Source: Macrocystis pyrifera (lineage: Eukaryota > Sar > Phaeophyceae > Laminariales > Laminariaceae). From it: a stretch of 64,000 nucleotides of DNA. The stretch covers positions 346,320-410,319 of the forward strand of contig JASSKH010000035.1 of NCBI GenBank assembly GCA_031763025.1, written 5' to 3'. Made by a program: the position numbers and the translations under genes. The notes beneath the pieces were generated by a model, which did no database searches, was not told the DNA's origin, and saw nothing but the letters and a program-made list of their open reading frames with translations. Positions 2,141 to 61,130 of this stretch are shown one piece after another. Numbering within the stretch: the stretch's first letter is position 1; each line of letters begins with the position of its first letter.

Positions 2141-5100
2141 GTTGGTTGCTCTATAGTCGAAGCCTTCACGGAATCACTCTGAAGCAAGCGAAACTCTCAC
2201 AGATCTACACTTCCTTTTTTCTTTTTTTTTTTTAAACGGATATAGGGCCGGTGCCTGAAGACGTTGGCGCTATCCAACAAGAGTACGTCTCCCATTGACA
2301 GCATGATCAGGTGTCTGGTGTTCTTACTACCTGTGTGCCCAGAGTTTCACCCGCCGCAGTGATCGCGACCCTCAAGCTTACCGCAAAGCATCTAGGTTTG
2401 ATGCTTTAGGGTATGCATTGCTTCGTGAATATCTTGACAGAACACTAAACATTCAACGCCAAACCTTCACCTCGAAGAACGGCTTCTAACTTCTAATCCA
2501 GCATGTTCGTCTTGGGTCTTTCGCTGCTGTGCGACTACGCGAAGCGCGCGTGAATAATTGTTTCGCGCGGAACGAGATGACCAAATGTTCTCTTTCTTCT
2601 CCATCTCTATCTCCGCCTCCAATTTCACGTCGTGCTTCTCTTGATTCAATATTCAATACATTCCACTCGTGGGTTGGTTGGTTCGTTCGTTTCGATTGGT
2701 GGTGCAGGCGGAGCTCGATGATAAGAGGCGTGTGCAGATCGCAAGGGAGCGGCAGGTGCTGAAGGAGTGCGAAGATCGCGCCGCCAGGCTCAACTCGGAG
2801 GTGAGAGGTGGGAAGTGGGAGGTGGGGGGAGTCGGGCGCGACGGCGCGAAATCACCTCTGTGCCTTCCGCAGCTGTAAACCACTGCTGTACTGCTATACG
2901 CCACCATACAGATCGACAGTCAGTATTTTCTTGTTTTCTTTTTTCAGCGTGGTACTGACTATCTCTCCAAAGGTCATCAGAATATCAGTACAAATGGGTA
3001 CCATTCATTTCAGTCCCTGGTACCCTTGAGACTCGCAAGGACTCAGTCATTTGAGCTCCCCGTCTCCTTGAGACTCGCGAGTACTCAGTCTTAAGACCCT
3101 GCCTGGGACTCGCGAGTACTCAGTCATTTCGGCTCCTGGTAGCCTTGCGGTCTCGCGAGCACACAGCAGTCATTCAGCTCCTTGTACCCTCGGGACTCGT
3201 AAGGACTCAGTCAATTCAGGTCGTCGTACTCTTGAGACTGAGTACTTCAAAAAGACTGGTACTCGCGAGTCAATGACCGAGTCCCCATGGCTGGTACTGA
3301 TACTCTGACGACCATTTGCTAAAATGAAATGAAACGGAAATAACAAAACACCGGTACTTGTACACACCAAAAAAAAGTGTTTGCTTCTGGTTTGACCCCT
3401 TGACTCGGTACTCGCGAGTTCTCAGTCGTTTCAGCCCCTGGTACCCTCGGGACTTGCGGTACTTAGTCGTTCGAGCTCTCCATACCCTTGGGACTAGCGA
3501 GGACTCAGTCATTTCAGCTCCTGGTACCCTTGAGACTCGCGAGCACTCAGTCGCTTGCGGTACTTGGGACTCGTGAGGACTCAGCCGTTTGAGCTCCTCG
3601 TACTGTTGGGACTGAGTACTTCAAAAGGACTGGTGCTCGCGAGTCAATGTTGAATCCCGATGATTGACACTGGTGCAGAATATTGCGTCTCTTTCTCTTG
3701 TACGGAGTTGCAGGTTTTTGAAACCCTAAACATCGAGGAATGATCGGGTCGCAAGGCCAGACGCACATATTTGGGTGGGACACCTTTGTCGTGACCAGAT
3801 TTTTTCGGATTGCTTTTGGACAGCAACTTCTCACAATAACCCAATAGTAGCGAGAGGAAGGCGTGCAGGTGCGTACGCGAAAACGCCTCCGAGATATTTT
3901 CGCCTCGTCCCTGTGGACCGTACTGGCGGGCGTGGAGTTCGTCACACCCAGGGGGCATCTCAGCCCGTGCAGAAAGCATCGCACATGGTAGTCGAGACAA
4001 GGTCAACTACGGCATGTACGCTTCAATTTCTTTAGGAGGGTTGCGTTGGGTGTTGTATTTTCCTCCTCGTTGCCTGTTTTGATGTCGCTCATGATCATCT
4101 GTTCACCCTCTTCCCCGATATTGCGTGATACCTCAGGCGGTGGTGCGTGGGCTCAAGGCGAAGCGGTCCTCGAGGCGAAGGGGCCTCGCCCGCCAGCGCA
4201 ACAGCGCGTCCTCCGCGACACCGGTCCCGCCGCAAGCCCCGGTCGCTACTGCCCCCGCCCCTGCCCCCCCCGCCTCCGCCCTGGATGTTGGATTATTGGA
4301 GGGCATTGCCGCTGCGGATGACGCGACGCACCGCGCGCGGGTATGCGCGTACGAAGCAGATGCTTTCGCGAAAGGATTGCGGCGCGGGCTGGAGTTGAGG
4401 GATGGGGTTGTAGCCAGTGCGGATGCAGGAGACCTGCGCCGAGGTAACGCACGCGGTAACTATATGTATGGTAATTATATGTAACAGCTGCCAGCGGGGA
4501 GGGGGGGTGCACTCGATACGAGAGATGTACTCTATCTCATGCATGGCCGTAGTCGTATGACCATAGACCCTCGCATCCCTACAATGGCGGGACGGAGCAT
4601 GTCGGGTTTTCACCGACGGGGAGGGTCAGTTGGCCCGCGTATGTGGCTTTGGTTTGGAAGAGTTTTCGATTATATATGTAGGGATGTGATACTGGTACAA
4701 TATTTCCCTTCGGAATGGGGCTCCGTTCTGGTGGATAGACGCCATGAATGAAACTACTGTAGAAGCAATCTGCTGTCATCAATCGTGTACCCCCGAATGC
4801 GTGTCCCCCTTGAGCTGCCGACGGTTATTCCTGACAGTTGTATGCGACAGCTGCTCCCAACAATTACATTTCATCTTTTAGTTCCACCCGGCAGTTCCAC
4901 CCGGCAGTGATATCCGACAGTCACATCCAGCAGCAATACCCGATAGCTACAGTGCAGCCGGTAAAAAGCTACATCCGACATTGATACCCGACAGTTACAT
5001 CCCAGTTGCACCCGACAGTTACATGGCAGCCGGTATTTACACCTGACAGCTACACCCAACAAATACACCCAACAATTACACCCGGCAGTTACATCCGGGA

Positions 5101-8100: not shown

Positions 8101-11100
8101 AATACGTAAGGTATCGATCGGGGTCCGTATCTGACGTACCTCAAACTTGGGTAAGGTATTGAGGTCGTACCCAGGATCGTACCTGAACCCGGGTATTTTC
8201 GTCGGTGGGTATACCCGATCCCTGAGTAAGTATTGGAGCCACGTACTTATCGTACCTAAGACTTAGGTATAGTATCGAGGTCCGTACCTACCGTCTCTAT
8301 TACGAAATAGTACTTAGCTAAGGTATAGTATCGGGGTCCGTACCTAGCGTCTCTATTATTAGCACTTAGATAAAGTATCGGGGTCCGTACCTAACGTACC
8401 TAAACTTAGAGTAGGTAAGGTATTGAGGTCGTCCCCAGGCTCGTACCTAAACCCGGGTATTTCGTCGACGGGTATACCTGCACCCGGGTAAGTATTGGAG
8501 CGGCGTGCCTATCGTACGTAAAACTTGGGTAAGGTAAGGTAAGGTAAGGTTTCGAGGTCCGTACCTAAGGTACCCAACAGAACACTGCGGTAAAGTATCG
8601 GGGTCCGTACCTAACGTACCTAAACTTAGAGTAGGTAAGGTATTGAGGTCGTCCCCAGGCTCGTACCTCAACCCGGGTACTTCGTCGAAGGGCATACCTG
8701 ATACCCGGGTAAGTATTGGAGCGGCGTACCTATCGTATCTAAAACTTAGGTAAGGTAACGTGGTCCGAACCTAGCGTACGTAACACTTGGGGAAGGGATC
8801 GAGGCCCGTGCGCAACGTATCTAAGTGTCGGGAACGGGTGCGTACTCGGGTATTTTACCCGGGTATACCCAAGTACGTACCTTACTTAACATGCCCTCCT
8901 TGTACTTTTGTCGTCCTGCGTGCAGGTGCAGGTTTTTACTCTTACTGTAGGAACACATTCCTGCTGTTTCTATGAATATAATGTGCCTCGGAAAAGGATG
9001 TTTTTGTTTGTGTTTTTGGCACAGTTGTGTTTCGAATCACTGTCTTTTGACCTTCCCGAAACGTTTATAATATTTAATGTTCGTGCGGTTGGGCGTCAGC
9101 TTGTACCTACGTCCACTCTTAGCGTTTTTGTTGAAAGATGCGATGGGCGACGATACAGTTGACGCAGTTGCCTCCTTCGACTTGAGTTAATGGCAACACG
9201 ATCACGATCTATGAAAATCCAGTGCGTGGTACTGCTGCTGCCGCCGCTGCCGGCACAGCCGTTGCCGTCGCCGATGCTGCTGGTTCTGCTGCTCGGCGCG
9301 AACGCTTCGACGATCACGGCGAGCATTGTTGAGCCCCCCTCCTGCTCCGTCTCGAAAGGGATGCGTGGTCAGTGGCCAACTGACTAATGTCAGCAACGAA
9401 TGAGTACGCCCCCCACCCACCCACCCCTCTCCCCTCTCCCTCCTCCTCCCTCCTTCACCCGGTTGTGCCGCCCTTCCACTTTGCCTCATCGGATCCGATC
9501 CCCAGGGTCTTCGTCATCGATCCCGGCAATACTCAAGCGTTGGTCCGCCGAGCTCAAGCTTATCAAGCGTTAGGACGCTTTCGCAGCGGCGTAGAGGACC
9601 TGGAGGCAGCTGAAGCCTCCATTTTGGCGTCCATTGGGGCCCTTGGGCCCCTCGTGGATGGAGGGGGCGGGGGGCAAGGACTAGTGTCGGAAGGGTTGGA
9701 GGAGGAGTTGGTGGAGGTGGTGAGGCGGTTGGAGCACGCGCGGTGGACAAAGGTGCGTGGTTTTCGTCTCGGTTGGTGTTGCATGGCGCGCCATGGATTG
9801 CACGGCGAGATCTCCGTATATGCTGTGTTATTGTTGTTTCGCTCTCTTGTGTGTTCGTGTCTGTTGTGAGGTGTTGCAAGGCGGTCCTTACGGTGGCCCT
9901 GTGGGCTGCGGTTTCCGACTAGAGGGGCGGTAGGGTGTTCTCGTATTGTCACCAATGTACGGTACGGTACGGTGTGCGTCGACACTCTCTACACCCATGG
10001 TATGTTTGTTTATGACACTCCCAACCCGTGCAAATATTCAATATTGTAATGTGTTGGTAAGCCTCAGTGGTATTTCTTCTCAGCACGTTTTGGTTCTCAC
10101 TGCTGTCCAGGACCAGGCACTACCGTAGTCTCATCGTGAATTCAAGGGTGAGTCACTTCGATGGCCACCAAACGCCAAAATGTACGCCATTTTTTTTCGA
10201 GCTGACTGATATGGCTGGTGCCACTCTGCCCGAAAACATAAGGAGCGTTTATACACTATCACGGGGGTCCATAGTTGATAGACCTATGCAATACGTAGAA
10301 ACCTATATATCTGCCTACTTTTACTATTACGGGGGTCCATAGTTAACAGGACCTATGATGTACGTAAAAACCTATATATTTTCCTATTTTTACTAACAAA
10401 ATTTAGTCCCGTTAACTATGGACCCCCGTAATAACAATATTTGGTCCTATTTACTATGGTCCCCCGTAATAACATGCATACCAATCGGTTCTTATATTTT
10501 CGCCTAGCGTGGTATGCATGAACCTTTTTTGGGGAACCGGTGTTTTCCAGGGATTTATTTCATCAAGCGTCGTCAAAATGTTGATAGGAAGAGCTGCGTT
10601 AGGGGTAGCATTTTTTTTTTTTTTGCCTTCTGAGGCAATATTTCTGACCGACTTGGGAGCTCCTCCGCCGAGAAACTACACAATAAGGTAACCAATGCCA
10701 CTGGGAGTAGCATTTGTGTTATACAATAGTTTCCATCGGGTTCAACCTGTGCTTGAGTATCTCGTATTTTTTTTTTTTCTCAGTGTCCTCAACAGTACTG
10801 TAAGGATAGGGATTTGTACGCAACGGTAGCATGCATCAGTGTTGTATGTCAAGGCGGCATGTACGTATTACACATGCCGCTGTTCTCGTATCCCCTGATA
10901 CTAGGTTAAGCGTTGGCGTTCGTTCGACAAGCTCCTCTCTCGACTGCCCCCTTTGCTTTGCCTCTTTGGACCAGATCCACGTCGGCAACGGCAAGGACGT
11001 GCTGGAGCGAGCTGGAGCCGTGCGCAAGAATAACGCTCGTGACGGTCATCATACACCAGAGCCCGGGGAGATAGCGGGAAGGCGGCCGCATCCGGATGAT

Positions 11101-11852: not shown

Positions 11853-13195
11853 TGTAATTTTTGCCCTCGATGACATGCATTCGAGCGCTGTTCTCAAGTT
11901 TGCTTCCACCAGTACGGACGGCACCCGAGCAGGTGGGTCTTGAATCAGATCGAACGTCTGCGCGCCTGATTATCAGTACTCGTGTGGTCATGCAGAGGCG
12001 GGGATATGGGATACGTCCGGTATTCGGCGGCCGTCGTTGTTCGGGAGAGGCATTCATTATCTATATAATGTCGGTGGTCTTCGCACTCTATTTTACAATA
12101 ATTTCGTTTTTTTTTTATCCGGTGGAGGCGTGTCCACTTGTCCACAAGAAGCGATCGCGCTATTATCGGCCCGTGGTATCGATTCACTCCACCCCCCGCC
12201 CGATTCACTCGAAAGGCGTAACACCAAAAACACACTGATTGGTGGGCGATGGCGACACGCGCGGCGGCGGCGGCTGCTGCTGCTGCTGCTGCTGCTACAG
12301 CTGTCAAGCGGATCAGCACGCTTCTTGTCAAGCAAAGCGGTGTTTGTGTCACTCATTGCTATCCTACCGTAATACCTGGCACAGCAGGAGTCACTCGTAC
12401 GTACGATGTGACATCATCAGTAGCTCAAACCAAGCGCGTATGAGAGAGACACCTACTACTGCCGTAATATAGTATTAATAGATTCAACATGATATGCTTG
12501 CACAACCAACCGAACTCGACGGTGCCCCCCCCTCACCCCACCTGTACGGCCTCCACATGCAAACAAACCGGAACTGCTACCTACATACACCAAACGAAGC
12601 GTGCTTGAAGCGCATATAGGTCGCTCACTTACTAGTATCCACCCAATCGAAGTCGTTAAAACTTGCTATAATACCCGCCGCCACGTACATGCACAGGAGC
12701 GTTGGTTACTGCACCTACGTGGTGCACTCCAACGCACTTGAGCAAACCAATATCGTCGCGATATACATCCAGGTGCCAGCCAGGTATGTCCGTCTGTAGT
12801 CTCACGCAATGTGCCGGCAACGATTTTGTTGCGCTGCCATGTTCATCCTACGACTATACATCTCGTCTTCCTATTGGTCGCGAGGCCCCCAACACACTCA
12901 CTCGCTGACCAGAAAAAGCTACCCTCTCTACTATGATATTATTGTACCCTCTTCCATGCCTAAAATATGCGCCGATGGGATATGACCGACATTTTGGTTG
13001 TTGTTGCTTCCGGATTCGGCCAATCGACACCGACTTTGCCCGACGGATTCGTCGCTCATGCCTCGGAATCGGCCATTGAACCTGCACACAACAGCAGATA
13101 TTATAGAGCTAGAAGCAAAAAACTACCCGGCAGAGGGATGCTTGACTGATCGAGTACCGGCCAATACCGCCATACCCCGCCCCCCAACCCATAAT

Positions 13196-13335
13196 CGCGC
13201 TTGGCGCAAGCAGCGTTTCCCTGGTCGGTGAAAAACGACGTGCTCCGTCCCGGCACTGCTGTAATGCCGGCATGTATGGTCATACGACTACAGTCGTGCA
13301 TGACATGCGTAAACCCACCCCCCTCCGTCATTTGG
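13196..13335 (+). mobile_element. Short C-tailed retroelement end, family B copy 2
   Basis: It carries GCGCTTGGCGCAAGCAGCG upstream and GTGCTCCGTCCCGGCA, then TATGGTCATACGACTACAG. It ends GTAAACCCACCCCCC. The upstream block is shared with the copy at 17927, so family B extends at least 130 bp. Confidence 0.7.
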
Positions 13336-15262: not shown

Positions 15263-18200
15263 CTGCGTAGTAGCAGTAAGACCAACAAGGGGGAGAAGGA
15301 GGGAGAGGAGGAGAAGGGAAGGGGGGGGGGGGGGGGGGCGTACTCATTTGTTGCTTGCTGTGGTCATTCGACCATTGGCCACGCATCCCTTTCGAGACGG
15401 ACCAACGGGGGGGAGAGAGGGGGTACTCAGATGGTGCTCGGCTTAGTAATTTGGCCCTTGACCGCGCATCCCTTTCGAGACGGAGCACCGGGGGGCGAAA
15501 CAGCGACAAGCACAGCATCATGGCGCCCATGTGTGGCATGTGGCATATGCGTGGGTGCTCGACTTACCGGCGCAGCCGAGGTCCTCGTGGACGTCGAGGG
15601 CCAGATCGCTGGCGTCCGTGGATCTGGCGCAAACCGTAATTTCCATCCAAACCTTCTTGAAGTCCTCCCAGCACATCCAGAAAACACCATCATCATCGTT
15701 GTTGTTCTGGTATCCCACAGCAGCCTATCCATAGCGCGCACGAAACAAGCAAACACCGCATTACATACGTCTACGATTATAGTACACGCCGTGTGGTGTA
15801 AAAAGGAAAGCGTACTGGCTCTTGTGCTGTGGCGTGTTGTTGTTGTGTTGCTGTGGTGTGCTGTGTCCTGTGTGTGCTCTTTTTTCTTCTCGCCATCCCA
15901 TACATTTTCTTCTGCCCTTCCCATCACTAGTCGCAACTCAGATCCGGGGATACATAATACGTAGCAGGCTGTCCTCCCCCCTGCTTCCCACTACTTTCAT
16001 TTTTATCGCGGGAAGACTCCACCAGCCCTTTCTTTCCTCGTCGGCTACTATAGCGTCGGATTGCGCCGGCGCGGTTATGGCATGTAATGGTACGGTAATA
16101 TAGTGTGGAATGGTGTGGTGTGGTATGGTATGGTATGGAACGGTTTGATATGGTATGGTACGGAACGGTGTGGTATGGTATAGTATGGAACGGTGTGGTA
16201 TGGCATTGCATAATGTGACGAGGGAACGGAGGGGGTGCGCGGGTATAAAACATCCAAACAACAAAACAAACCAAAAACAAAATCAACAGGACTACAAGTA
16301 CACAAAACAAAACCACACAGCGAACAATAAAACCATAAAGGAGCGGAAGCGGCGGCCACGCCACGGGCAGTGGTAGTAGCGGTAGTAGTGGTAGGAGTGA
16401 GGTAGAGGCGCGCCTCCCCTTTGAGCTTACGCTGATGAGTGGCGACCTCTGCCACTGGGTCGTGTTGTCTGCCCAACGTCCCTTCCACTCCCCTTTCTTG
16501 CCCTGGAAGGAGCGCGACAAAAAACAAAACAAACGATCAACAAAAAACGAGGAAAACTACGAATGAGCAAAAAGAGAAAAAGGTTTACGAACACACATCG
16601 AACAGATCATCTACAGAATAGATCACCTAGATATTAACCTACTGTTATTCTGAGGTGTTGTGCGGGATCTCTATAGTACACAATCAGCCCAGAAAACATG
16701 TCGCAATGTCATGCAGATTGGGCTACTTCCACGCGGCGGCATGAGCTATTAATAGGTCATCCAGAGCAGTCTTCTATCTACCCTCATGGATCTAAGTCAT
16801 GAGCTTGGAAGCATCTACATGATTTGCACAAAGTGCTACTTCACCTTATAACCCTTTCATGGCGACAAAACCATATAGAATACAAGTGGGATCGCGCATC
16901 CGGGCACCGTCGAGTACGTCGCTCGTTCGTGTTCGTGGAAAGGGGGCGGCTGTATTCCGCTCGAAAATCGGTGGTCGTCGGCAGGCAAGCAGTAACTACG
17001 AAGATAGTTACTTGCAAGCCGTCGATAATGTAGAAACTCGAGCATAACGATACCGCTCTACACACGAAAAAATAAGCAAAAATCTAGTAGTTCACACTTC
17101 GTGCTCCAACTCACGTCGTCTATTGATAACTCTGACCCACCCATGCCCACCCATGGCCTACATTTCCTCTCTCTCTCACCCAAGGGTTGCGGATCTGGAT
17201 GAGTTTCTCGCCGTGGATGCTGACGGCGTTCATGATGGAGTAGGCGTGGTTTTCGATGAGGCCGTCCTTGCGCTGTTTCTCCATCTTTAGACAAAAATAA
17301 TCGACAGCAAAATAGCAACGATGGGGGGGGGGAGCGAGCAATGTACGAACGAAACTCCATTATCCTACGGACGACATGTGTCATGATTTACAGCCAGAAC
17401 TACAATCATGATGATTCAGGTAATCATTAATTAACGTCAACGATCGTCGTTGGTCGTCAAAGACATCAAGCGCGAGCTGCAGCAGGCGTACCGAGGGAGA
17501 GCCCGAGCTCAGGCGGCTAAACTTCCAAAAACATATACCTAGCGTGCTCCCCCCCCCTCCCTTTCGCGACGATGCTGTAAAACACGCCTCTCACTGCGTG
17601 AGCTAGACAACCAGGGTACCGTTTTTTTTTTTTTTTTTTCTTCTTGGCGGCTACCACAGCTGCCGGTCAAGTTAGATCATTTTGGTGCGGGGAGAACCTT
17701 TACTCCGCGCAAGGGGGATGATCGTATCACGTAGTGTGTATATGGTGAGGCACCCACGAGGCAGTTACATAGTAAACCCATGGCTGTCTCTGGAAGTGGC
17801 TACACCAGAAATTAAATCAATCCATTGATGCTGTCATCCATATGCAAGAAAATCCGCCTCTAAAGCGGTTCTTAGCAGGATGCAGCTCACCCTTCATGCG
17901 ACTCGCCCAACACCGCACGGCGCTTCGCGCTTGGTGCAAGCAATGTCTGCCTGGTCAGTGAAAACCCGATGCGCTCCGTCCCGGCATTGTAGGGATGCGA
18001 GGGTCTATGGTCATACGACTACGGCCATGCATGATAATGAGTACCCCCCCCCCCCCCCCCCCCCCCTTGCTCCGTTCCGGCATTGTAGGGATGCGAGGGT
18101 CTATGGTCATACGATTACGGCCATGTATGACATGAGTAAACCCTCCCCCCCCCTCTTTCCCCTCCATCGCATACAGTGAGGCCAACCGTATCGCACGGGT

Positions 18201-21200: not shown

Positions 21201-24200
21201 CCCACAGTTCACGATCCAGCTCTTCCAGGGGAGATATATAATATTTTCCTGATCTGTATGATCTAGCTCATGTTGACGGGTGGGAGCCGTATGATCTGCA
21301 TCATTCATGATATCACACGTGTTTCCTGGCGCGGATCTGTACTGCATAGATCCTGCAGGACACATCACAACGGCGGGCTAGGATCTTGCAGACGATTTAC
21401 ACCGTACCCGTTTACTCGTAGCGGTTACCGATATGAAACGAAAAAAGGAACACTGATATCGGTATCCATACCGGTGCACGCGTGTTGAGGGTGAAAGGAG
21501 TTTGACATGTTTTCAGGCGTACGTTCGAAGGAGGTGTGATATTCACAGTACCCCCCTAGCCCACGGTGATGAAGTGATCGTCTGTCCAATGCTTGTTGTG
21601 TGCAAATTGTAGATGCGCGAAGTGAACCAACTGACCTGAAGGTGAAGACGTGATTGCCGGTGAGAACCTTGAGCCCCCACGCCTCAAAGCCGCCGGCGAT
21701 GGCAGAGTAGCTCCCGCAGAACCTTCCGACGAAAAAAACCCCCCAAAAAAACACAAAACACAAAACCAACGAAACGAAACGAAACGAAAAAAACACGAAT
21801 AATTTGTACATAGAGAAATCACGTACAAAAAACATGAAACAACGCGCCGCCGAGACATGAGGTCAGCTACTTACAGGGGGGCTAGTGTAATGAGAACCCA
21901 AGATGGACCCAAAAAAAAATATCCCCGTATGTTTACGCATCATATTTGGTTCTGATTTACCTCAGAATATTCCCGCGTACAAAATAACACTGCTTAATAC
22001 GTGCCAGGTATGGGCCAAGACGAGTCGCAACTTTGGACGGAACCAGAGACAACGTAGGGACCCCTCCCCCCCTTTCGAGATCGCCGGAGCATAAATCTCC
22101 GATCGGCCTCGTTTCCTTCTACGATGCCAACGGGTTCTTTGATTCATCGACATCTACGATCATCCAAAGCTCCATTTTTTCCAGGGCATTCCTCGGGATT
22201 TTTTCCCGCGGTTGTGTGCGGGATTCGGGATAATCCCGTGGTCCGGTGATGAACGTGAAATCTCGCGCCCGCACAAAAGCGTCCCTCCAGTACAAATTCT
22301 AATATCCCGCTCCCGCGCCACGAAAAAATGCAAATCCCGTTCCCGCACAAGCGCGTCCCGCACAAATTCTATTAATCAGTTCCCGCACGAGCACGTCCCG
22401 CACGAAACGGGACAAGAAACGACCCCCAACAGAACATTAACGTTTGCATGTCACTTGCGGACAGCTACAGCTCCCCACAAAAAACCTACAAACGAACGAA
22501 AATGGGACACGTTTCTTATGAGGTGTGTGAAGGTGTCGGATGCACCACACAGCAGTCGAAGCCAGCCAGAAATCCCGCGGTCCCGTGATAAATGTTAAAT
22601 CCCGTGCCCGCACAAGCGTATCCGGCATAAAATTTCGATATCCCGCTCCCGCGCCACGGAAAAACGTAAATCCCGTTCCCGCACAAAACACGTCCCGGGG
22701 TGGCCATATCCCGTACAAACAACACCCTTTAGTCCCGTGGTAACTGAGACTCCGCGGGATATCGTCCCGGAGTCGAAAAGGCGTCCCGAGGAATGCCCCA
22801 ATTTTTCAAGGAACCACTAGGTAGGGACACTGGAGAGGTGTTGCGTGTTGCATACCTGGTACGTGATATGATAAAGCAGTGCAAGCAATTTTATCATCTG
22901 CAGTACAATGAGGGCCATAGGTGACTTTGACCGAAACAAAAAAGACGTAACATCCACCATGAGGGCCTAAACAGATACACTAATATTACGGGGGTCCATA
23001 GTTAACAGGACCTATGGTGTACATAAAAACCTATATATTTACCTATTTTTACTAACAAAATTTGGTCCCGTTAACTATGGACCCCCGTAATACGAAACCG
23101 TTGCTTTTGGGTAGTCTAGTGTGTATGGCAGGCCGGCTCACCAGAGTGCTAAGCGGGATGCGCGCATGTATCTTCTCGTTTTTTCGTTTTTACGTTGACT
23201 TCTGAGGTTAGCTCGGTCCCCAAAATGGGAAATTGTGTTGCTTTTGTTTTGTTTGTGTGTCTCTTTCCCCCCCCTCTTTCTCCCCCGGCCCGCCTCTCTG
23301 TCTCCCCCCCCCCCCACTCCCTTTTCCGGTCATAGGGCTATGGCCATGCAGATAACGAGTACCCCCCCCCCCTCCCTCTCTTCTGCATCTCTCTTACTTG
23401 GCGATAGCCTTCTCAAGCAGGACGACCCACAGCTCCTTCCCGTTGGGTTTCGCAAATATTGGTTGGCCGTTTCGAGTGGGGATGAGGTCGTCCACCGTGA
23501 TCACCCTCCAACGGTTCTGCGTCACGTCGAACAGGCGTACCCTGTACTTTCCCCTGTACAAACAAGGAACACACGAACGCACGGAACGGACGAACAAAAC
23601 CGTCACGAAAAAAGAAGAACCGGACAAAATGTCCTCAGCATAATGCATAACTACCGTACGTACAACCCTCGCGACAACACAGACCCCTTCCGACCATTTT
23701 CCAGGTTGATTTTTCTCGACAGCAGGGAGAGTGCAAAACACCATCCAGGTACATACATACGTCTATGGAAACCTATCGACGGGTTATTTCCAAACCCACC
23801 GTGCTCGTTTTGTGTGTGCCCTTAATTATATATATATACTAAAAGCCTTGTTCACCGCTATTTATTTCTCTTGCCGAATTTCCAAATTTCCAAATTTCGA
23901 ATTTTTCCAAACTTTTGGAAGTGTGTTGTGTGTTGCGTCGGTAGCGTATCACGTCGGTGGTCTGTCACGCCAGTTGAGTGTCGCGTACTGTAGGTAGTGT
24001 GTCAAGTCGGTGATTTATCACGTCGGTAGCGTGTCGCGTAGGTAGCATGTCATGTCGGTAGCGTGTCACATCGGTGGCATGTCACGTTGCCTAGGTAGCG
24101 TGTCGCGTAGGTAGCGTGTTGCGTAGGTAGCGTGTCGCGCAGGTAGCGTGTCATGTCAGCTCGAGCGGACGCTTGTGCTTGAGTGATGCTCGCCAGCACA

Positions 24201-33977: not shown

Positions 33978-34240
33978 CGGTGCTCCGTCTCGAAAGGGAC
34001 GCATGGTCAATGGGGGAAAATGACTATGGCAATCAACAGGTGGGTACGTCCCCTCCGTCCTGGCATTTTAGAGGTACAAGGGTCTTGGTCATACGACTAC
34101 GGCCAAGCAGGACACGAGTGCGCCGCCCCCCCCTGTATGGTCTGTAAAACTCCGACGAGCGAGGGTCTCGACGTTGTAGGCATGCGAAGCATGATCATAG
34201 GACTACGATCACGCATGGCAGGAGTACAACCCCCACTCAT
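33978..34240 (+). mobile_element. Three C-tailed elements in tandem: family A copy 4, family B copies 6 and 7
   Basis: 33978-34050 is family A (TGCTCCGTCTCGAAAGGGAC, then GTACG). 34051-34137 is family B (CTCCGTCCTGGCATTTTAGA, then TGGTCATACGACTACGGCCA and seven C). 34150-34240 is a more diverged family B (ATCATAGGACTACGATCACG, then GAGTACAACCCCC). All three point the same way. Confidence 0.75.
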
Positions 34241-38110: not shown

Positions 38111-38384
38111 TGCTGTTCGGAGTGCTCACGTAATTGGTGTATGGATTCATGTGTAACGGTATTTGGGAGTTTTACACAGGAAATATGCGTGTTTCTGTGT
38201 GGAGCGGTCAGCGGGTTGCGACGTATTTTGTCCGCCACTTTCTCACTTCTTCTAGTTGTGTACTTCATGTTCTCCCCCTTTCTTCCTTGCCTTGCGTATT
38301 CTAAGCGATAAGATATATACCCTGGAGGGACTTCTATGAATTGACCTAGGCTTGGCCTATCATATCAGTGAGTGCACCGAACAC
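38111..38384 (+). repeat. 5' LTR of copia element
   Basis: Matches 45566-45838 from GCTGTTCG to GCACCGAACAC with a few substitutions and a small indel. AAGATATATACCCTGGAGGG near its 3' third may include the TATA region. The base before GCTG is T here and G in the other copy, so a canonical TG start is uncertain. Confidence 0.9.
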
Positions 38385-40518: not shown

Positions 40519-41001
40519 TTGGTCGGCCAGTACGATGTTTTGGGAAGGGGGATAGAGAGTTGGATTGCGGACAACCGGGCGACAACGCTCATGACCCCGA
40601 ACCCGGACCACTTGTATAACAAGTGCCCCCCCTCCCCTGAGAACGTTATAATATTTATTGGTGACGGCACAGAATTAAAAGTGGAGTACGTAGGCAGCGT
40701 GGATTTGATTCTTCACAGCACGGAAAACGTACGAGTAACCTTGGAGAATGTTTCTGTTATCCTAAGCTTGAAGGTAAACTTGCTGTCGCTGCACACTGTC
40801 CAGGCCAAGGAGGCGATCACTCTAGATGCTGCTGGTGCCCACCTAATGGGTGGCCGCTTGTTTTTCCCGAAAGACAGAGCCGGATCCAAGCTGAACGCCA
40901 CGCGTCGCCCCCCCCCCGTACAGGGTACACCAGCTTTGATGTCCTTGTTGCAACCCCCCCCCCCCCCCCCCCCCCTCCCTCCCATGCGCCCGTGCCTATG
41001 A
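40519..41001 (+). pseudogene. Copia aspartic protease region with altered active site
   Basis: WIADNRATTLMT occupies the place of the family WxxDSGATxHMT signature. The Asp remains but the following Ser-Gly is Asn-Arg. The downstream FIGDGTELKVEYVGSVDL and NLLSLHTV strands are typical. The frame differs from Gag and runs into a C22 homopolymer. Confidence 0.75.
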
Positions 41002-41245
41002 CAGTACACCCGGTGAGGACGCCGGGAGTATCTGCCATGCCGCTGTCGCCGGGGGCGATGGTAGCGGTAGACCCGTCGGTAGCGATGGATGGTTAGAACG
41101 GTTTTGCAACCCCCCCCCCCCCCCTCCCCCCCATGCGCCGGTGCCTGTGATGTTACAACCGGTGAGGACGCCGGGAATATCTGCTATGCCGCTGTCGCCG
41201 GGGGTGATGGTAGCGGTAGACCCGCCGGTAGCGATAGAACCAATG
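40947..41245 (+). repeat. Tandem duplication of about 155 bp seeded by poly-C, within copia pol
   Basis: 40947-41095 and 41103-41245 both begin TTGCAAC and a long C run, then CATGCGCC-GTGCCT and CGGTGAGGACGCCGGGA, continuing to GGTAGCGGTAGACCCG. The second copy is in frame with integrase; the first is not. Confidence 0.85.
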
Positions 41246-42199
41246 ATAGCGGTAGCAACCCCCCCCATACACCCTGCGACAGTGCCGGAACCTAGTGAGC
41301 CAGCACCTTCGTCAGCTAATCCCCCGGAAGAATGCCTTCCCCCTCTCCCCCCCGCGTTCCGCCCGGCGATTGCTGCTGCCGTGCTCGTCCCCGGCATTAG
41401 ACGTTTCAAGGAGGTGGACATTAACGTCTTTCACGTGTGCAACGCCCACGCCCACGAGGGCATTTTGCGCGAGACGGCCAAGCAGCAAGGCGTCAAGCTC
41501 ACTGGTACCCTGGTCACTTGCAGTGGATGTGTGCAGGCGAAAGGCAGGCGTGCGTCTATACCTACGACTACATCGTCTCGGAAGGCACTCCGCCTGCAGC
41601 GCGTTTTTGTTGACCTTGCCGGCCCCAGGAAAATCGCGTCTGCTGGGGGGGCTCTGTACCTGATCATGTTCAAGGATGACGCGACACGCATGGGATGGCT
41701 GTACCCCCTGAAGAGCAAGAGCGCCGCCGACGTGACCGCGGCGACCCGAAAATTCCTGGCTGACGTCGGCGGAGCCGTCGAGTGTTTCCGGACGGACAAC
41801 GGCACAGAGTTCGTGAACGCACTCTTCGCGAACTTATGCGCCAATGAAAAAATCCGACACGAGCACACCGGGGTCGACGGACCGAAACACAACGGTGTGG
41901 TCGAACGTGGACTCGGCCTCATCCAGGAAGGCGGTATGGCCGCTTGCCTTGAGGCCCCCCGGCTGTTCCCCGGGCAGCTCCCGAACCTGGACCGCTACTG
42001 GGTGGAAGCAGCCATCTACATGAACGACTGCCTGAACACCACGGCGAGAACGACCATTTCAAGTCGCCGCACGAGGCATTTTTTGGGACACTGCCACAGC
42101 CCAACACACTCGCCTTCGTGCAGCCCAGATTCCACCGCATCCACCGCACCCACAAGTCTGACCCCAAGGTCGAGCGGTGTTTTTACCTCAACAGGGTGA
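41141..42199 (+). pseudogene. Copia GAG-pre-integrase and integrase core
   Basis: A zinc-binding H/H/C/C module (FHVCNAHAHEG, then LVTCSGCVQAKGR) is followed by the DDE core. The first Asp is in FVDLAGP, the second in RTDNGTEF and the Glu in HNGVVERG. After about 42045 the expected continuation (SPHEAFFGTLPQPN) lies in another frame, which continues through 42118-42360. Confidence 0.88.
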
Positions 42200-42890
42200 G
42201 AAACCATCTGCGCGACTGTGTCAAGGTGGTCACGGCATGCGGGTGTACGAGCAACTCGCGGGACGTCACCTGGGAGGTGGAGCGCAAGCCGATCATCGAG
42301 GCTGCGCCTCAGGCGAGGAAGGACTCTGTGGCGGAGCCGTGGGAGGCCGATCTGCACATCAGGTATTTACTACCGGAGCTGGCGACTGTGTCACCGGGGA
42401 TACCACCGATGATGTCACCAGCACGACCGGCGGTACCGCCGACGCCGGCGATGACGCCAGCGCCACCGGAGGTGCCGCCACCGCCGACGCCAACGCCGGG
42501 GATGCCGCCGCCGCCGGGGGTGACGTCACGGTCATCCCCACCGGGGGCCGAGAACCATCACGTCGAGGATGACGAGGGCCCCCGGGATAACGAGCTCTTT
42601 CAACTGGGGCGGATGAGCGCTAGGACACGGGCGATGACGAAGGCGTCGCTTCAAGTGCGGATGCCGCCGGTGATGACGCCGGCGCCACCGGAGATGCCGC
42701 CGCCGCCGGGGGTGATGTCACCGTCATCCCCACCGGGGGTCGAGAATCCTCAAATCGAGGACGACGAGGGTCCCCCGGACAATGAGCTCCTCCAACCGGG
42801 GCGGACGCGCGCGAGGACAAGGGCGTACCACCAGGCGTCTGCTGGTACATCGCAGCCAGCTGACCACGCACTTTTCAACCAGCGCCCGCC
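42118..42890 (+). pseudogene. Copia integrase C-terminus and Pro-rich linker
   Basis: It opens with the GKG-like C-terminal region (HKSDPKVERCFYLNRVRNHL). A Pro/Thr-rich linker with two related blocks (around 42400-42600 and 42660-42800) follows. Each ends with a GAENHHVEDDEGP or GVENPQIEDDEGP motif. The internal duplication resembles the poly-C-associated one upstream. Confidence 0.7.
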
Positions 42891-44107
42891 CAACCAGCCC
42901 ACCCCTGCTCTGCCAACTTGTGACGCGGGACAACTCTCGGAACCCGCGACCTACCATGCTCTCGCCATACCATGCGAACTGGTCCCACGCAATGGAGACG
43001 GAGATTGCTGGACTCGAGGGAGCTGGGACTTTCGGGGATGCTTAGCAGCAAAAGGGAGGGAACGTGGTATCGGCCAAATGGGTGTTCACTTGGAAGGAAG
43101 ATGAGCATGAAAAGGTAGAGAAGGCGAAAGCGCGACTAGTGGCGAGATGATTTAGCCAACGCCCCGGAGTTGATTACTATGAGACTTTTGCCTCCACTCC
43201 CGCCGCGTCATGTATCCGTATGATGACTTCGATAGCCTGCGAGTTACAGTTATATTTATGCCATTTCGATGTACAACAAGCGTTTGTCCAGGCCGAACTA
43301 CAGGAATTCGTTTTGATGCGGATGCCACAGGGCTGTGGCGATCTGAGCGGCAAAGTAATGCGCTTGAATCGTAGCCTATACGGCTTGAAACAGGCGTCGA
43401 GATCCTGGCATAGGCACTTGGTCACCCGCCTGAAGAGTCTTAGTTTTGAACAGAACCTCGCAGATCCGTGTGTTTTTCGATTAATCGAGGCGGGGTCTGT
43501 TTCCATCATTGCTGTGGTTCACGTCGACGACATTTTTGCGGTAGGCCGTAAGGAGAGATGTGACCGTTTTTTGCGAGGACTGAACCGCGTAGTCCCCATC
43601 AATAACCTTGGCGAGCTGCGATGGCATGCCGGTTGCCACTATTCCCGAGACAAGATCGCGGGTTTACTGACTATTTCGCAAGAATCTTTCGCGGAGAAGA
43701 CGGTCAAGCAATTTGGCGTGACCGCTGGTAGGAACACCCCACTTTCGCCTAATATTCTTCTGGAGGTGTTTGACGAGGAGGAGCCCATTGGTGACTGGCC
43801 GTATCGTGACCTAGTAGGCAGTTTGCTGTGGCTTTCTAACCAGACGAGACCTGATATGTCAAATGCCGTAAGGGCGGTCGCGAGGTATGTGCATACCCCC
43901 AAACTCAAGCACTGGTTGGCTGCGAGAGGGATTTTGGAGTATCTGAAGGTGACAAGTAGCTACGGGATTACTTTCCAGAGAGGCAGTGGATTAGAGTTGG
44001 TGGTTTACGCAGACGCAGCCTATGCCCCCCGAGACACTGGGAGGAAGTCTGTATCGGGTGCAGCCGTGATGTGTGTGTGGGGGTGCGGCCATTCAATGGA
44101 TTTCTAG
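42890..44107 (+). pseudogene. Copia reverse transcriptase with two in-frame stops
   Basis: The frame starts around YHANWSHAMETEIAGL. It has stops at 43043 (TAG) and 43148 (TGA), then runs open to 44107. Diagnostic blocks are RPGVDYYETFASTPAA, VQQAFVQAEL, MPQGCG, LNRSLYGLKQASRSWHRH and the catalytic VHVDD (43517-43531; Tyr replaced by His relative to YVDD). YADAAYAPRDTGRKSVSG starts the RNase H domain. It is broken at a GT/G-rich stretch near 44080. Confidence 0.88.
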
Positions 44108-45565: not shown

Positions 45566-45838
45566 GCTGTTCGCAGTGCTCACGTAATTGGTGTATGGAT
45601 TCATGTGTAACGGTATTTGGGAGTTCCACACAGGAAATATGCGTGTTTCTGAGTGGAGCGGTCAGCGGGTTGCGACGTATTTTGTCCGCCGCTTTCTCAC
45701 TTCTTCTTGTTGTGTACTTCATGTTTTCTCCCTTTCTTCCTTGTCTTGTGTATTCTAAGCGATAAGATATATACCCTGGAGGGACTTCTATGAACTGACC
45801 TAGGCTTGGCCTATCACATCAGTGAGTGCACCGAACAC
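45566..45838 (+). repeat. 3' LTR of copia element
   Basis: 273 bp, aligned end to end with 38111-38384. The next sequence after ACAC differs between the two ends (gctagc and atgccg), which fixes the boundary. Confidence 0.9.
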
Positions 45839-46326: not shown

Positions 46327-46421
46327 GAGCTGCACCCTGTCGTTGCCACGTACGATATACTCGGAACTACAGTAGAGTACATTTTCTTGTAGTGGTAGAA
46401 GGGTTAAGGTCGGGGGAGGCG

Positions 46422-47059
46422 GAGGGGAGGGGGGGGGAGGGCGCGTACTCATTTGTTGCTTACCTTAGTCACTTGACCATTGACTACGCATCTCTTTCGA
46501 AACGGAGTACTATTACTACTCGTTACAGAGACAACCTACATTGTTGGGCGCTCTTGTAGTTTTTGCCTTACATTATTTACAAACCTTTTCTTTTCTTACC
46601 CCCTTCCTGTTTCGCCGCCTGTGGCCACCATCTATATCCTAGGATAGCGATCGTTTTCTCGCTACTATCTAGTGTACCGAACTTCTCCATGCCACGTTCG
46701 TCTATTTTTTTCGTCTCCTCCTTGAACATTTTCCGTTCCTTCTTGTACATTTCACACTCTCCCCCTGTGTGAGTTCTACTCTCTACTACTGTTTTTCCAC
46801 AAGCGCACATTTGTGCATCTACTTCCTCCTCCTCCCGACTTCTGGTATACCTCTTTCTTCTTTCCGGCAGGTCCAAGTCCCCTACACGAAACCGTAGTTT
46901 CACCGTTTCCGCGTGGCTCATCGGGCCGTGCAATAGCGTTTTCACTCCCATTTCTTGTCTTATACCCCCCCGTACATCTCTCAAGTGCTCCTCGGACCGG
47001 AAGGGGGCGGCTGAGCCAGCAGCGGTGGCGAGACCAAACCCGTGAGTGACATAATGCAA
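46422..47059 (-). pseudogene. 5'-truncated LINE 3' end with C-rich tail (source-type copy of family A)
   Basis: The minus-strand frame 47059-46577 contains a zinc-ribbon-like end typical of LINE ORF2: MCACGKTVVESRTHTGGECE then YKKERKMF. It continues SSEKTIAILGYRWWPQ. Downstream, after small indels and a stop, ERPTM-VVSVTSSNSTPF leads to RKRCVVNGQVTKVSNK, TGA, GTACG and a C-rich tail at 46441-46422. This joins the family A tag to a longer LINE coding end. Upstream sequence is unrelated, so the copy is truncated. Confidence 0.65.
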
Positions 47060-49431: not shown

Positions 49432-49468
<37 letters not shown>

Positions 49469-50114
49469 CATATATATAGATAGATAGATAGATGGATAGA
49501 TATATAGATGGATAGATAGGTAGATGGATAGATATGTAGATGGATATATAGGTATATGGATATATATATAGATGGATATATAGATAGATGGATATATAGA
49601 TAGATGGATATATAGATAGATGGATATATAGATGGATAGATAGATAGATGGGTAGATAGATACATGGATATATAGATAGATGGATAGATAGATAAATGGA
49701 TAGATAGACAGATGGATATAGAGATAGATGGATAGATAGATAGAAGAATAGATAGATAGATGGATAGATAGATGGATAGATGGATAGATAGATGGATGGA
49801 TAGATAGATAGATATATACAGTATATATATATATATATATAGACAAATAAATAGATGGATATATATATATATATATAGACAAATAAATAGATGGATATAT
49901 ATATATATATATATAAATATATATAGGTAGATATATATAGATACATAGATAGATAGATAGACAGGCAGATATATATATATATATATAGACATATAGATGT
50001 ATATATATACATATAGGTATATATAGGTAGACAGGCAGATGTATACATATATAATAGAAATATAGATAGATGTATAGATAGATCATGATGTATCTGATCT
50101 GTTCGAGGTGTGAA
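49201..50114. mobile_element. Inverted-repeat element family E, copy 5, expanded by a GATA microsatellite
   Basis: The ends are CACACCTCGGTCAGAAC and the reverse complement of CACACCTCGAACAGATCAG. Flanks aaatcatt and aaatcatg suggest an 8-base target duplication with one mismatch. The usual body (GATCTACTGTAGCTCATC, then GGCGGGTGGGGCCCGTATAA) is followed by about 650 bp of GATA/TATA units, making this copy three times normal length. Confidence 0.75.
49425..50085. repeat. (GATA)n/(GGATATATA)n compound microsatellite
   Basis: Long runs of TAGATAGATAGATGGATAGA and ATATATATAGATGGATATA. Minus-strand frames here are Ile/Tyr/Leu/Ser repeats and are not proteins. Confidence 0.95.
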
Positions 50115-54272: not shown

Positions 54273-54968
54273 TCTATTCACCTGATCCCCAGTGCGTATG
54301 TCTAGGAGATCCCCTAACTCCCGGTTATCCGTCAGTCCTTGGTTATCCACGACGTTTGGTCAGGGAATCAATCGGCACAATTTACTCGCCAGTCTCGGAC
54401 AGTGTGCACCCTGAGAAACGTGTAGTGAACTTGTCGTATCGTTTATTTGGCGTGTGTCACGTGTCGGGCTGGTGTGGGTGGCGTTTGTTTCGTCCGCCAC
54501 AGGCAAACCCACGAAGCTACTCCACCACCGTAGTAGACAACGCCCGGGCAACTGCCGTACCGGTGTTTAATGTTCCATGTGCTTTACCGGTGGTCTCTCG
54601 CAAAGACTTTAGTCGGAGCTACAGCAATATACGAAGGATTCCGCTGGCGCGGCGCCTGTATATATGGTGCTTGTATGTTCCCCTGCCGGAGTTGTTGCGC
54701 GCGTTTCCGGTCGCAAGCATTCCGTGGTGAAAACAGCGTCACCCCTCTCTGGAAGGGAGGCTCAGACTCATCCCGCTGCAGGGGTTGCACTTTTTGGCTC
54801 AATGTTTTCTGAACTGAAAAAGCTCCTCAAGTGAGCACACTACAATACTGTGCCGGTGAATATGATACTTGTTCGATTGCGGCGGAACACAGTAATCAGG
54901 ACCAAAATACTGGAATATCTAGTTTTTTTGTCGATGTGAGGGGTCCCAATTACTATGGACCCCCCTCA

Positions 54969-55076
54969 TATTACGCAGGACCATAGTAAATTGGACCCAA
55001 TATTGTTGGTAAAATAGGTAGCCATATAGGTTGTTATGTGTACCACAGGTCCTATTAACTATGGTCCCCCGTAATA
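54969..55076. mobile_element. Family M MITE, copy 5 (with adjoining fragment)
   Basis: TTACGCAGGACCATAGTAAA and the inverse of TTACGGGGGACCATAGTTAA, between TA dinucleotides. A half element (GGGGTCCCAATTACTATGG) abuts it on the left. Confidence 0.8.
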
Positions 55077-55261
55077 GCATACATGTTATATATTTGTTTC
55101 AGGACTATATAGGGCATATAAATGTTGGTCGGGACGCGTGAACAAACGTTCTTCGAGAATTCGTGTTTCGGGTGACCAGAGGGATATTGAGCTCCTGGTG
55201 TGGAGAGCTCATGAAATAAGGCACAACCCCTGGAAGGTGGCCATTGCTCCATGCTTGAGGC

Positions 55262-59879: not shown

Positions 59880-61040
59880 GCTGGTTGGTGCTGGAGCTGG
59901 TGCTGACGCTGTTTATTTTTGTTGCTGCCTCTAGCTGCGGCTATCGCCAGCTAGCTGCCGCTTGCTGTGCTGCGGCGTGTAGTCGTGGGATGGCAAAAGT
60001 GTGGTGGCTTCGCGGTCAACTCTGCCGCCGAAACGTTGCTGGGCTGCCGCTGTTTTTTTCCGTTCTTCTTCTTTTGTTTGTGTGCCGCGTTGCCTCACCT
60101 CCCCACTCCCCTTCTTATTTGCGGAGGCGTCGCCTGCAGGATTTGGTTTCCCTCACTCGCAAACACACCGAAATCAGGAAGGGAAGGAAATTCACTTTTT
60201 TTTTAAAGTAAAGTTTTTTTTTTTTACCTTTATCGCAAACACTCTATTGCTGTACAGGTGGCCAGGACCCCCCCCCTCACAATGTGAGCGTAAACGAATA
60301 GCACGCGCGCATGCAAACCGTTTGATCGTTTTTGAAGCGTGCTCTGACGTAATAGGCGCCACCCATCCTTGGCCCTGTGATCGCATGGGTCCATTCGTGC
60401 TTTTGCCGCGCGCAGTTCTGTAAGGACATCGCCTATGCCGGCGAGGAGGACTGCGGTATGTAACCCAACCTACAGCTGCGTGCTCGCACTGCAGACGGCG
60501 GGATGTTCAACACAGGAGGTAGCCCCTTTGAAGGGTGTCAGTATTCGGGATCGGAGGTCCTTTCTATAGGTACCAACGTCCCTTACCAGAGTTGGTATGA
60601 TAGAGGTAGGCAGCACTTCTGGGGCAGAAACGTTTTCTGAATGACGGTACTCCTTAACCCAGAACCGTCCTCGGAAGTTCATTATCGTGTTGCTGTATGT
60701 TTCGTTGTATGCGCAGGCCATGGGAATGTTTATCAACCATTGCATCTATACTTTCCTCCCAACAGATTTTGGGTGGGGTATGGGAGCCCTCCTCATGTGA
60801 GGAAGAGACTCGGAAGAAATATAGTGCATTTCACCCTAGTGGCGGTCCTTATCAGGGTTTGTACCGGCCCCTTACGGTCAGTAGCGGGCACAACTGGGCG
60901 GCAGAAATTTGAGGTCCTTTTCATATCGTTTTCCCCTATTGTGGGGTCGTTTAAAAGGGTCTATCGTACCAAGACAGCATTTAGCCCGCCGTGTGTTGTA
61001 TGCAGTTGGGCGCACCTGAACCACAACTGACGGGGACCCC
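59880..61040. other. No gene recognised; partial family D copy
   Basis: T-rich at 60199-60225. A reverse-oriented family D fragment lies at about 60597-60700 (GATAGAGGTAGGCAGCAC, TCTGAATGACGGTACTCC). Nothing else supported. Confidence 0.4.
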
Positions 61041-61048
61041 CCCCCCTT

Positions 61049-61130
61049 GGTGCTCCGTCTCAAAGGGGGATGCGTGGTCAATGGTCAAAAGACTAAGGCA
61101 AACAACTAATGAGTACGCAGCCCCGCCCCC
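61049..61130 (+). mobile_element. Short C-tailed LINE 3' end, family A copy 6
   Basis: GGTGCTCCGTCTCAAAGGGG, then TGCGTGGTCAATGGTCAAAA, ending AATGAGTACGCAGCCCCGCC. An indel in the AAAGGGGG stretch shifts the frame. A C run also precedes it. Confidence 0.75.

Follow-up and report, generated by a model that had tools for sequence, protein, structure and literature searches.

A LINE with a C-rich tail at the locus

We analyzed a 64,000-nucleotide stretch of the genome of the kelp Macrocystis pyrifera (GenBank assembly GCA_031763025.1, contig JASSKH010000035.1, positions 346,320 to 410,319), hereafter the window, which has a GC content of 51.4% (50.37% is given for an M. pyrifera assembly; PMC10498591). 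At 46.4 to 47.1 kb, its minus strand carries the 3′ end of a long interspersed nuclear element (LINE), here called F1, and elsewhere the window holds short copies of the same end together with members of a family of about 500 bp, F2, that shares it (Table 1). The window copy of F1 ends, on the minus strand, with ...AGCAACAAA TGA GTACG CGCCCTCCCCCCCCC... A preliminary description, drawn from the letters of the window, had read this as a LINE reading frame that stops five bases before a C-rich tail of variable length. The position of the stop holds for the window element and for a 639-bp majority profile built from 18 long F1 copies (L015 and L028 left out; the names L008-L028 denote genome stretches chosen for a match to F1). 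The majority frame stays open as far as ...GCVVNGQMTKASNK-TGA-GTACG, followed by C(n), and the protein ends in ...KASNK. Examined singly, 16 of the 18 long copies keep TGAGTAC, and among these the last 22 codons are open in 16/16 and the last 100 in 11/16. The tails do differ from copy to copy, with a longest C-run of 6 to 79 across the 18, and the check that had been proposed, of where similarity between copies stops, places this point after the C-run, with unrelated flanks beyond. The 5′ ends of the long copies are scattered from about -630 to -4,300 relative to the 3′ end.

Used as a DNA query, window positions 46600-47059 returned 3,093 candidates in the genome (here and below, an assembly of 537,376,219 bases in 223 contigs), of which 40 were scored. 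Apart from the window copy itself, the scored matches (39) share 82-84% identity with it, which marks it as a diverged member of a large family. By codon position, it carries 3, 2 and 1 changes within the last 66 nt, too few to interpret, and 27, 16 and 31 in the body, a weakly coding look; in the 18 long copies the changes are even over positions, as in dead copies.

Protein domains and classification of F1

F1 is a LINE, as had been supposed, that is, a non-long-terminal-repeat (non-LTR) retrotransposon, and it belongs to the apurinic/apyrimidinic endonuclease (APE) type. It encodes a reverse transcriptase (RT; RVT_1, E 9.9e-14 in L028 and 1e-13 in L027) and an APE endonuclease (Exo_endo_phos, E 1.9e-9, 38 bits with a cut-off of 24.5, in L030) that lies upstream of the RT in L028; in addition to these domains, its copies share one 3′ end and are 5′-truncated to different extents, six of them have target-site duplications, and the 3′ tail is a simple repeat, of C and not of A. 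The open stretch of L030 that contains the endonuclease begins MNTNKLEIF, and a CPCG...H....C motif (CxC...H....C type) lies downstream of the RT. A search of PDB with the RT gave weak matches to R2 and L1 ORF2p, and phmmer against PDB with the endonuclease returned no endonuclease match.

The L028 copy extends 4.3 kb upstream of the 3′ end and is itself 5′-truncated, its 5′ junction lying directly after a C14 tract that follows GAGTAA. Seven other copies extend further upstream, and L033, L035 and L036 are alike for >1 kb beyond, so the true 5′ end of F1 must lie beyond the sequence examined. From start codon to stop, L028 spans about 4.15 kb, with frameshifts, and no copy open throughout the frame was seen among those examined. 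Assembled by eye from open stretches of different copies, the predicted protein would have about 1,380 codons if in a single frame and would comprise an N-terminal part, the endonuclease, the RT and the CxC...H....C motif. The 5′ regions scored are 97-98% identical to L028, which suggests that F1 was active fairly recently. Two F1 5′ regions lie in opposite orientation within 2 kb in L032 (248-748 on the minus and 1501-2001 on the plus strand, 92% and 98% identical to the query). The anatomy of F1, taken with a description of Ectocarpus elements (PMC12477816), hints at a possible membership of RTE-X. One protein scan and one pattern scan found no relatives in viral contigs.

A 66-nt module shared by F1 and F2

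The last 66 bp of F1 (GTGCTC...GAGTAC) are common to F1 and F2 and are also found alone. A profile of this module, searched against the window and L008-L028 at E up to 0.1, gave 100 matches, 13 of them in the window and 7 with E above 0.001, which fall into F1 ends, module-only F1 copies and F2. The six window copies that the preliminary description had listed as sharing a 3′ end all match it (9343+, 15404-, 15488-, 33980+, 46509- and 61050+), and with the window element as blastn query the five others have E-values of 5.8e-18 to 3.2e-10. By itself the exact 8-mer TGAGTACG is weak evidence, since its five occurrences in the window (1.58 expected) are reached in 4 of 100 shuffles. Within 42 nt past the stop position, the longest C-runs of the six copies are 18, 9, 7, 6, 6 and 4, mostly in interrupted C-rich tails. 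The frame is open to the shared stop in four of the six (9343, 15404, 46509 and, by hand, 15488); the 61050 copy has TAA one codon before that stop, and the frame of the 33980 copy is broken. The likeness that had been taken for a common set of last 20 codons is real, but it is better read as an RNA module, because F2, in which no such frame was seen, carries it too.

F2 joins a 5′ part of its own, about 420 bp long (GGGTTGGCGTCGGTTGGC... and a T-rich stretch), to the module, and is 5′-truncated at many points. No long open reading frame common to F2 copies was seen; several have short ones, up to 77 codons across the last 150 nt and the module, on which no domain search was made. A tRNA search of the window found none, and Rfam gave no match near the gathering score for window positions 17400-18300, which contain F2. 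F2 is apparently non-autonomous, and we do not term it a short interspersed nuclear element (SINE), as it shares its 3′ end with a LINE but has no RNA polymerase III promoter head that we could find. The base between GAGTAC and the C-run is linked to the family, being mostly G in F1 and A or none in F2. One F2 subfamily has an extended 3′ end, in which GAGTAC is followed by ATCTCTCCTATCGAGTAC or a close variant, that is, a second GAGTAC-like end before the C-run (L022:2136, L011:2217, L013:3799, L013:4485, L027:6038, L016:4994 and window:4527-4599).

Genome-wide, a 23-mer of the F1 module occurs 1,946 + 1,965 = 3,911 times, against 0 + 0 for the reversed control, and is preceded by LINE body (7 further exact bases) in 1,173 + 1,164 cases. 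On the minus strand, 218 of 1,965 modules have C7 within 0-8 nt upstream (the forward-strand figure of 784 counts sites repeatedly and is not used), which makes copies that start at the module itself, beside a C-tract, a recurrent class. In 275 kb there are 180 C-runs of at least 10, of which 48 lie at most 14 nt downstream of GAGT or a close variant of it; when the remaining 132 were clustered, the largest cluster (8) consisted of degraded module copies, and no other recurrent family appeared among the clusters listed.

A predicted fold of the module

In single-sequence folding, the F1 and F2 consensus strings take the same three-way fold. Its 6-bp closing stem, GUGCUC/GAGUAC, forms the exact ends of the module, and its inner hairpins are GUCUC..GGGAU (GUCCC..GGGAU in F2) and UGGUC..GACUA. 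Differences between the two consensus strings fall in 16 of 28 unpaired columns but in 1 of 38 paired ones (P 5e-7 with gapped columns excluded), a contrast computed after the fold had been chosen and on the same sequences, with 56 of 57 aligned copies entered. Pairing holds in 92.1% of 1,082 cells, against 30-45% when it is slid. Since the LINE stop codon lies in the 3′ strand of the module, the F1 frame runs through the putative RNA domain.

Several results weigh against the fold. The paired share of 92.1% compares with 91.8% in shuffles, 46 of 500 of which reach the observed value, and two-sided pair changes, considered as proof by covariation, were discarded as such because 173 of 500 shuffles reach them. 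The fold z-scores are modest, at -1.4 to -1.8 for three F1 copies and -0.3 to -0.4 for three F2 copies, and the closing stem is present in the best fold of 18 of 25 F1 and 12 of 31 F2 copies. RNAalifold, on a gappy 83-row alignment, returned no structure. Taking both sides together, we regard the predicted fold as likely. A ribozyme at the 5′ end of the module was also considered and set aside, with no Rfam match to a hepatitis delta virus (HDV)-like or other catalogued RNA in one F2 and one F1 stretch.

C-tracts as probable insertion targets

Across the window and L008-L028, a C-tract (at least 7 C in 8 nt, inside 25 nt upstream) precedes the 5′ junction in 58 of 80 copies, against 2.6% for 20,000 positions drawn at random from the same sequences (2.0% within the window). 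A G-tract precedes none of the 80, and tract and element therefore have the same orientation. The C-tract is found in 15/18 long, 9/12 mid-length and 8/11 short F1 copies and in 26/39 truncated F2 copies. Dropped from the sample were 13 full F2 copies, for which the profile begins upstream of the 5′ end (4 with a C-tract), 4 F1 copies ending at the profile edge and not at a 5′ junction (0 with a C-tract) and 3 weak matches (1 with a C-tract). When the count is made stricter, by asking for a C-run of at least 6 within 15 nt, 54 of 76 copies qualify (copies with unclear ends were dropped here and in the duplication test below), and the gap between this run and the element is 0 nt in 13 of the 54 and 1-3 nt in 17. 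The tract follows GAGT, the end of an older copy, in 19 of the 54, so that about a third of the targets are older tails, which gives head-to-tail arrays.

Some of the data point the other way. No C-tract precedes 22 of the 80 copies, including the long L010, L020 and L022; L019, L023, L026 and the window element pass the test only at its threshold, and the window element fails the stricter count. Moreover, the sample is non-random, having been selected by F1 match, and members of one array are not independent. What we observe is a strong preference for C-tracts (58/80), not the strict specificity of R1/Tx1-like LINEs.

The preliminary description had offered two origins for the tail, priming on G-rich DNA and untemplated addition of C. 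The first gains strong support from the 58 of 80 5′ junctions that lie beside a C-tract, and the second is possible but not needed. Its expectation that empty sites would lack the tract has to be reversed: the 5′ flanks indicate that the tract usually preceded the insertion, as its target, so that part of the tail may be target DNA. When these loci were searched for empty sites, the matches listed were only tails of other copies or loose matches, with no true empty allele among them.

Target-site duplications and tail length

In six copies, the C-run and 4-8 nt recur after the tail, like a target-site duplication (Table 1), and in five of the six the tail exceeds the target C-run. In two cases the target tract is itself an older copy's tail, in L018 after ...ATAATGAGT and in L008 after ...AAATGAGTACCCCT. 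Tails are also present where the 5′ C-run is missing, with C41 in L020 and C22 in L022.

The case for duplications is weakened in several ways. Four of the six come from a test of 42 copies, and L008 and the second L027 case were chosen by eye; the latter has a mismatch, L008 has an extra T and matches only if its 5′ boundary is shifted by 8 nt, and in L018, L025 and L021 the match lies partly within bases called element. Over the 42 copies, the matched prefix averages 0.83, compared with 0.49 after shuffling (P 0.03), and matches of at least 3 are not significant (4 against 1.86 shuffled, P 0.11), a weak signal which implies that most duplications are short, decayed or absent. The 5′ and 3′ C-run lengths are alike in 48 copies (27 longer, 19 shorter, P 0.30; Wilcoxon P 0.13).

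C-tract density across the genome

The genome contains 82,348 + 82,918, or about 165,000, C-tracts of at least 10, where random sequence at 25% C would be expected to have about 384 per strand. The forward strand has 9,015 matches to the pattern GAGTACN{0,2}C10 and 86 to the reversed control; the forward count alone is used, as the reverse-strand figure of 20,126 counts sites repeatedly owing to the variable gap. An element end thus precedes about one in nine forward C-tracts (9,015/82,348), and F1 and F2 tails are one candidate cause of the very high density of C homopolymers in the kelp genome. Most C-tracts of this length are not beside an intact GAGTAC, and other sources or very old tails must therefore exist.

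A model and its alternatives

Target-primed reverse transcription, with pairing between a nicked G-tract and the C-tail of the RNA, is the best model and in our judgment a probable one. F1 RNA would end in the structured 66-nt module followed by C(n), and the F1 RT would recognize the module, which F2 RNAs (about 500 bp) and 66-nt RNAs also carry and through which they would be mobilized in trans. Within a poly(dC):poly(dG) tract, the endonuclease would nick the G-strand, whose 3′ end would anneal to the C-tail and prime first-strand synthesis, and the top strand would be cut a few bases beyond the C-tract. Each insertion would then place its copy between the existing C-tract and a newly made C-tail, adding one more target. 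Such a mechanism would give rise to fixed orientation, 5′ C-tracts, duplications, 5′ truncations and nested arrays.

The anatomy, the C-tails, the common module, the 5′ truncation, the strand-specific 5′ C-tract, a few target-site duplications, the insertions beside older tails and the copy number are established at the level of genomic sequence; to these the model would add RNA-DNA pairing, the position of the nick, recognition of the module by the RT, mobilization in trans and the presence of the Cs on the RNA itself. RNA-borne Cs are favored by the tails that exceed their target in 5/6 duplications and by the tails at the C-poor L020 and L022, and are not favored by the equal run lengths on the two sides of 48 copies.

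The same equality is what would be seen if the tail came wholly from the target, with an RNA that ends near GAGTACG, an RT that starts on the primed G-tract and a tail that is the duplicated tract. Targets that already contain C-tracts fit this as well, but the longer tails in 5/6 duplications (C4 to C17, C7 to C27 and C11 to C79, for example) do not, unless later repeat growth explains them. The C41 and C22 tails of L020 and L022 also speak against it, with the caveat that their 5′ flanks are possibly rearranged, as does the family-linked base that often stands between GAGTAC and the C-run, and we consider this origin of the tail unlikely. Growth of the arrays through recombination or slippage between C-tracts, rather than through insertion, would explain why head-to-tail copies split by C-runs are common, but it seems a good deal less probable still, as one array mixes families and truncation points, duplications flank single copies, and the same arrangement is found where the 5′ C-tract does not follow GAGT (L021, L024 and L016). 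Least probable of all is a general, untargeted LINE whose 3′ repeat resembles a microsatellite, its 5′ C-tracts reflecting C-rich neighborhoods or the sheer density of tracts in the genome (82,348 + 82,918), given the gap between background (2.6%, or 2.0% in the window) and 58/80, the 0/80 G-tracts and the position of the tract inside the duplicated target in the six duplication copies.

Beyond target-primed reverse transcription as such, we propose tentatively, and at somewhat less than even confidence, that F1 is an APE-type LINE homing to poly(dC):poly(dG) via its RNA C-tail, which makes its own landing pads and whose 66-nt domain is copied alone. If so, F1 would form a self-reinforcing safe-harbor system that helps to fill the kelp genome with about 165,000 C-tracts, in a lineage outside R1 and Tx1 should its clade prove to be RTE-X. 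The 66-nt domain, whose recurrent 5′ end lies at the closing stem, would be released or copied in one piece and would be among the smallest retroposons, and the last ~20 amino acids of the LINE would be encoded within an RNA domain.

Comparison with known systems

Short 3′ untranslated regions (UTRs) are known in RTE LINEs, and Waldo and Mino of the R1 clade are microsatellite-targeting LINEs. F1 belongs to a known kind of element, in a variant that appears to be new. The five-base 3′ UTR, noted at the outset as unusual, is less odd beside the short ones of RTE LINEs. Tail repeats built of something other than A have been reported in both RTE and RTEX (PMC3747384). In Ectocarpus, RTE-X LINEs rank, with a ~600-bp partner, among the commonest transposable element families; the partner, RTEX-N1_Ec32, is the most abundant single family and is non-autonomous, with an unexplained 5′ part and a 3′ end like that of autonomous RTE-X (PMC12477816). 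Like F1 and F2, these are an abundant, often 5′-truncated LINE and small partner in a brown alga, a comparison made by description only; unlike for F1, the sections of that account consulted mention neither a C-tail nor a C-tract target (PMC12477816). Similarly, Bov-B, an RTE element, and Sauria SINE have a common 3′ end, microsatellite-like 3′ repeats and an insertion signature, but targets that match the repeat are described as rare (PMC13295347), whereas in the kelp the target matches the 3′ repeat in 58/80 copies. The same 2026 paper on RTE LINEs presents the role of 3′ repeats as a matter without consensus (PMC13295347).

Togen ((TG)n) and some HERO elements insert into simple repeats, as F1 does; unlike F1, they come from lineages whose endonuclease is restriction-like (Togen through its kinship with NeSL), and none of the microsatellite-targeting LINEs compared, as far as the excerpted account goes, has a C homopolymer as target (PMC4640811). 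Non-A 3′ repeats, 3′ ends common to LINEs and small partners, and 3′ stem-loops occur in several LINE clades, including RTE, RTEX and CR1, and the LINEs of green algae and plants resemble F1 in their non-A 3′ repeats, SINE-shared ends and ‘stringent’ 3′ stem-loop recognition; the RTEX repeats named in the text available are (CA)n, (CAA)n, (CCAT)n, (ACAATG)n and (CTTGTAA)n, with no (C)n (PMC3747384). Snake CR1-L3/Rex LINEs are like F1 in that their 3′ repeats fill the genome with one simple repeat, but the portion of that study consulted describes seeding only and does not mention targeting of the seeded repeat (PMC6050309). A ‘poly-C’ of Blepharisma was rejected as a parallel, being the terminal repeat of a DNA transposon. 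Across the titles and abstract openings listed, a coverage that leaves out most subscription journals, we found no LINE with a homopolymer C-tail or a C-homopolymer target. For the question of how the RNA tail of a LINE and its DNA target find each other, the kelp offers a case in which tail, target and orientation agree in 58/80 copies examined, of thousands, and in which a LINE, its partner and a 66-nt version can be compared.

Mapped features and other repeats

Table 1. Positions of F1 and F2 copies in the window, and copies at other loci with sequence resembling a target-site duplication.
Feature	Position	Strand	Remarks
F1 LINE 3′ fragment, 5′-truncated, frame broken	46443..46995	-	nhmmer match to F1 profile positions 92-639
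66-nt 3′ module, GTACTC...GAGTAC in this copy	46445..46510	-	
TGA stop of shared frame	46449..46451	-	read as 46451-46449, then GTACG (46448-46444), then CGCCCTCCCCCCCCCTCCCCTCCG
C-rich tail of window F1 element	46412..46443	-	longest run 9
F1 module-only copy	9342..9407	+	C-rich 5′ flank and tail
F1 module-only copy	15340..15405	-	C18 tail at 15321-15338; 5′ side abuts C-rich tail of the 15488 copy
F1 module-only copy, first of tandem pair	15423..15488	-	5′ flank below C-tract threshold
F1 short copy, broken frame	33980..34047	+	poor C tail; upstream C-tract absent
F1 module-only copy	61050..61116	+	C10 at 61037-61046, 3 nt upstream
F2 element, near full length	17560..18048	+	C23 tail at 18044-18066
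F2 module copy	18066..18142	+	begins directly after C23 tail of preceding F2 copy
F2 truncated copy	4523..4618	-	no upstream C-tract at the threshold used
F2 truncated copy	13195..13307	+	
Very short F2 end	23327..23366	+	between C-runs 23304-23315 and 23362-23372
Two degraded F2-type copies	34053..34231	+	34053-34119 and 34133-34231, after F1 copy at 33980
Duplication, L021			C-run 12 before, 23 after; motif AATCACGC
Duplication, L025			C-run 13 before, 8 after; TGGTCG
Duplication, L018			C-run 19 before, 56 after; TCTCT
Duplication, L027			C-run 11 before, 79 after; TCCC
Duplication, L008			C-run 7 (plus a T) before, 27 after; GAGCTACA
Duplication, second in L027			C-run 4 before, 17 after; TGATCCC/TAATCCC

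In addition to these elements, the window contains a repeat of ~110 bp that occurs in both orientations and resembles a miniature inverted-repeat transposable element (10251-10474, 20501-20611, 20794-20916, 22973-23095, 54965-55077 and 63229-63347); ends resembling it (...ACTATGGACCCCCGTAATAG...) adjoin F2 pieces elsewhere, for example at L028:8500 and L016:1549. A 149-bp tandem repeat at 40954-41266, whose units start with C22 and C15 after TTGCAA, lies near large open frames (41141-42199 and 42118-43104) and places a C-tract in a gene-like repeat. Positions 38112-38384 and 45566-45838 form a 273-bp direct repeat with 95.6% identity, and an (ATAG)n-type array of 650 bp (162.5 units) occupies 49434-50083.
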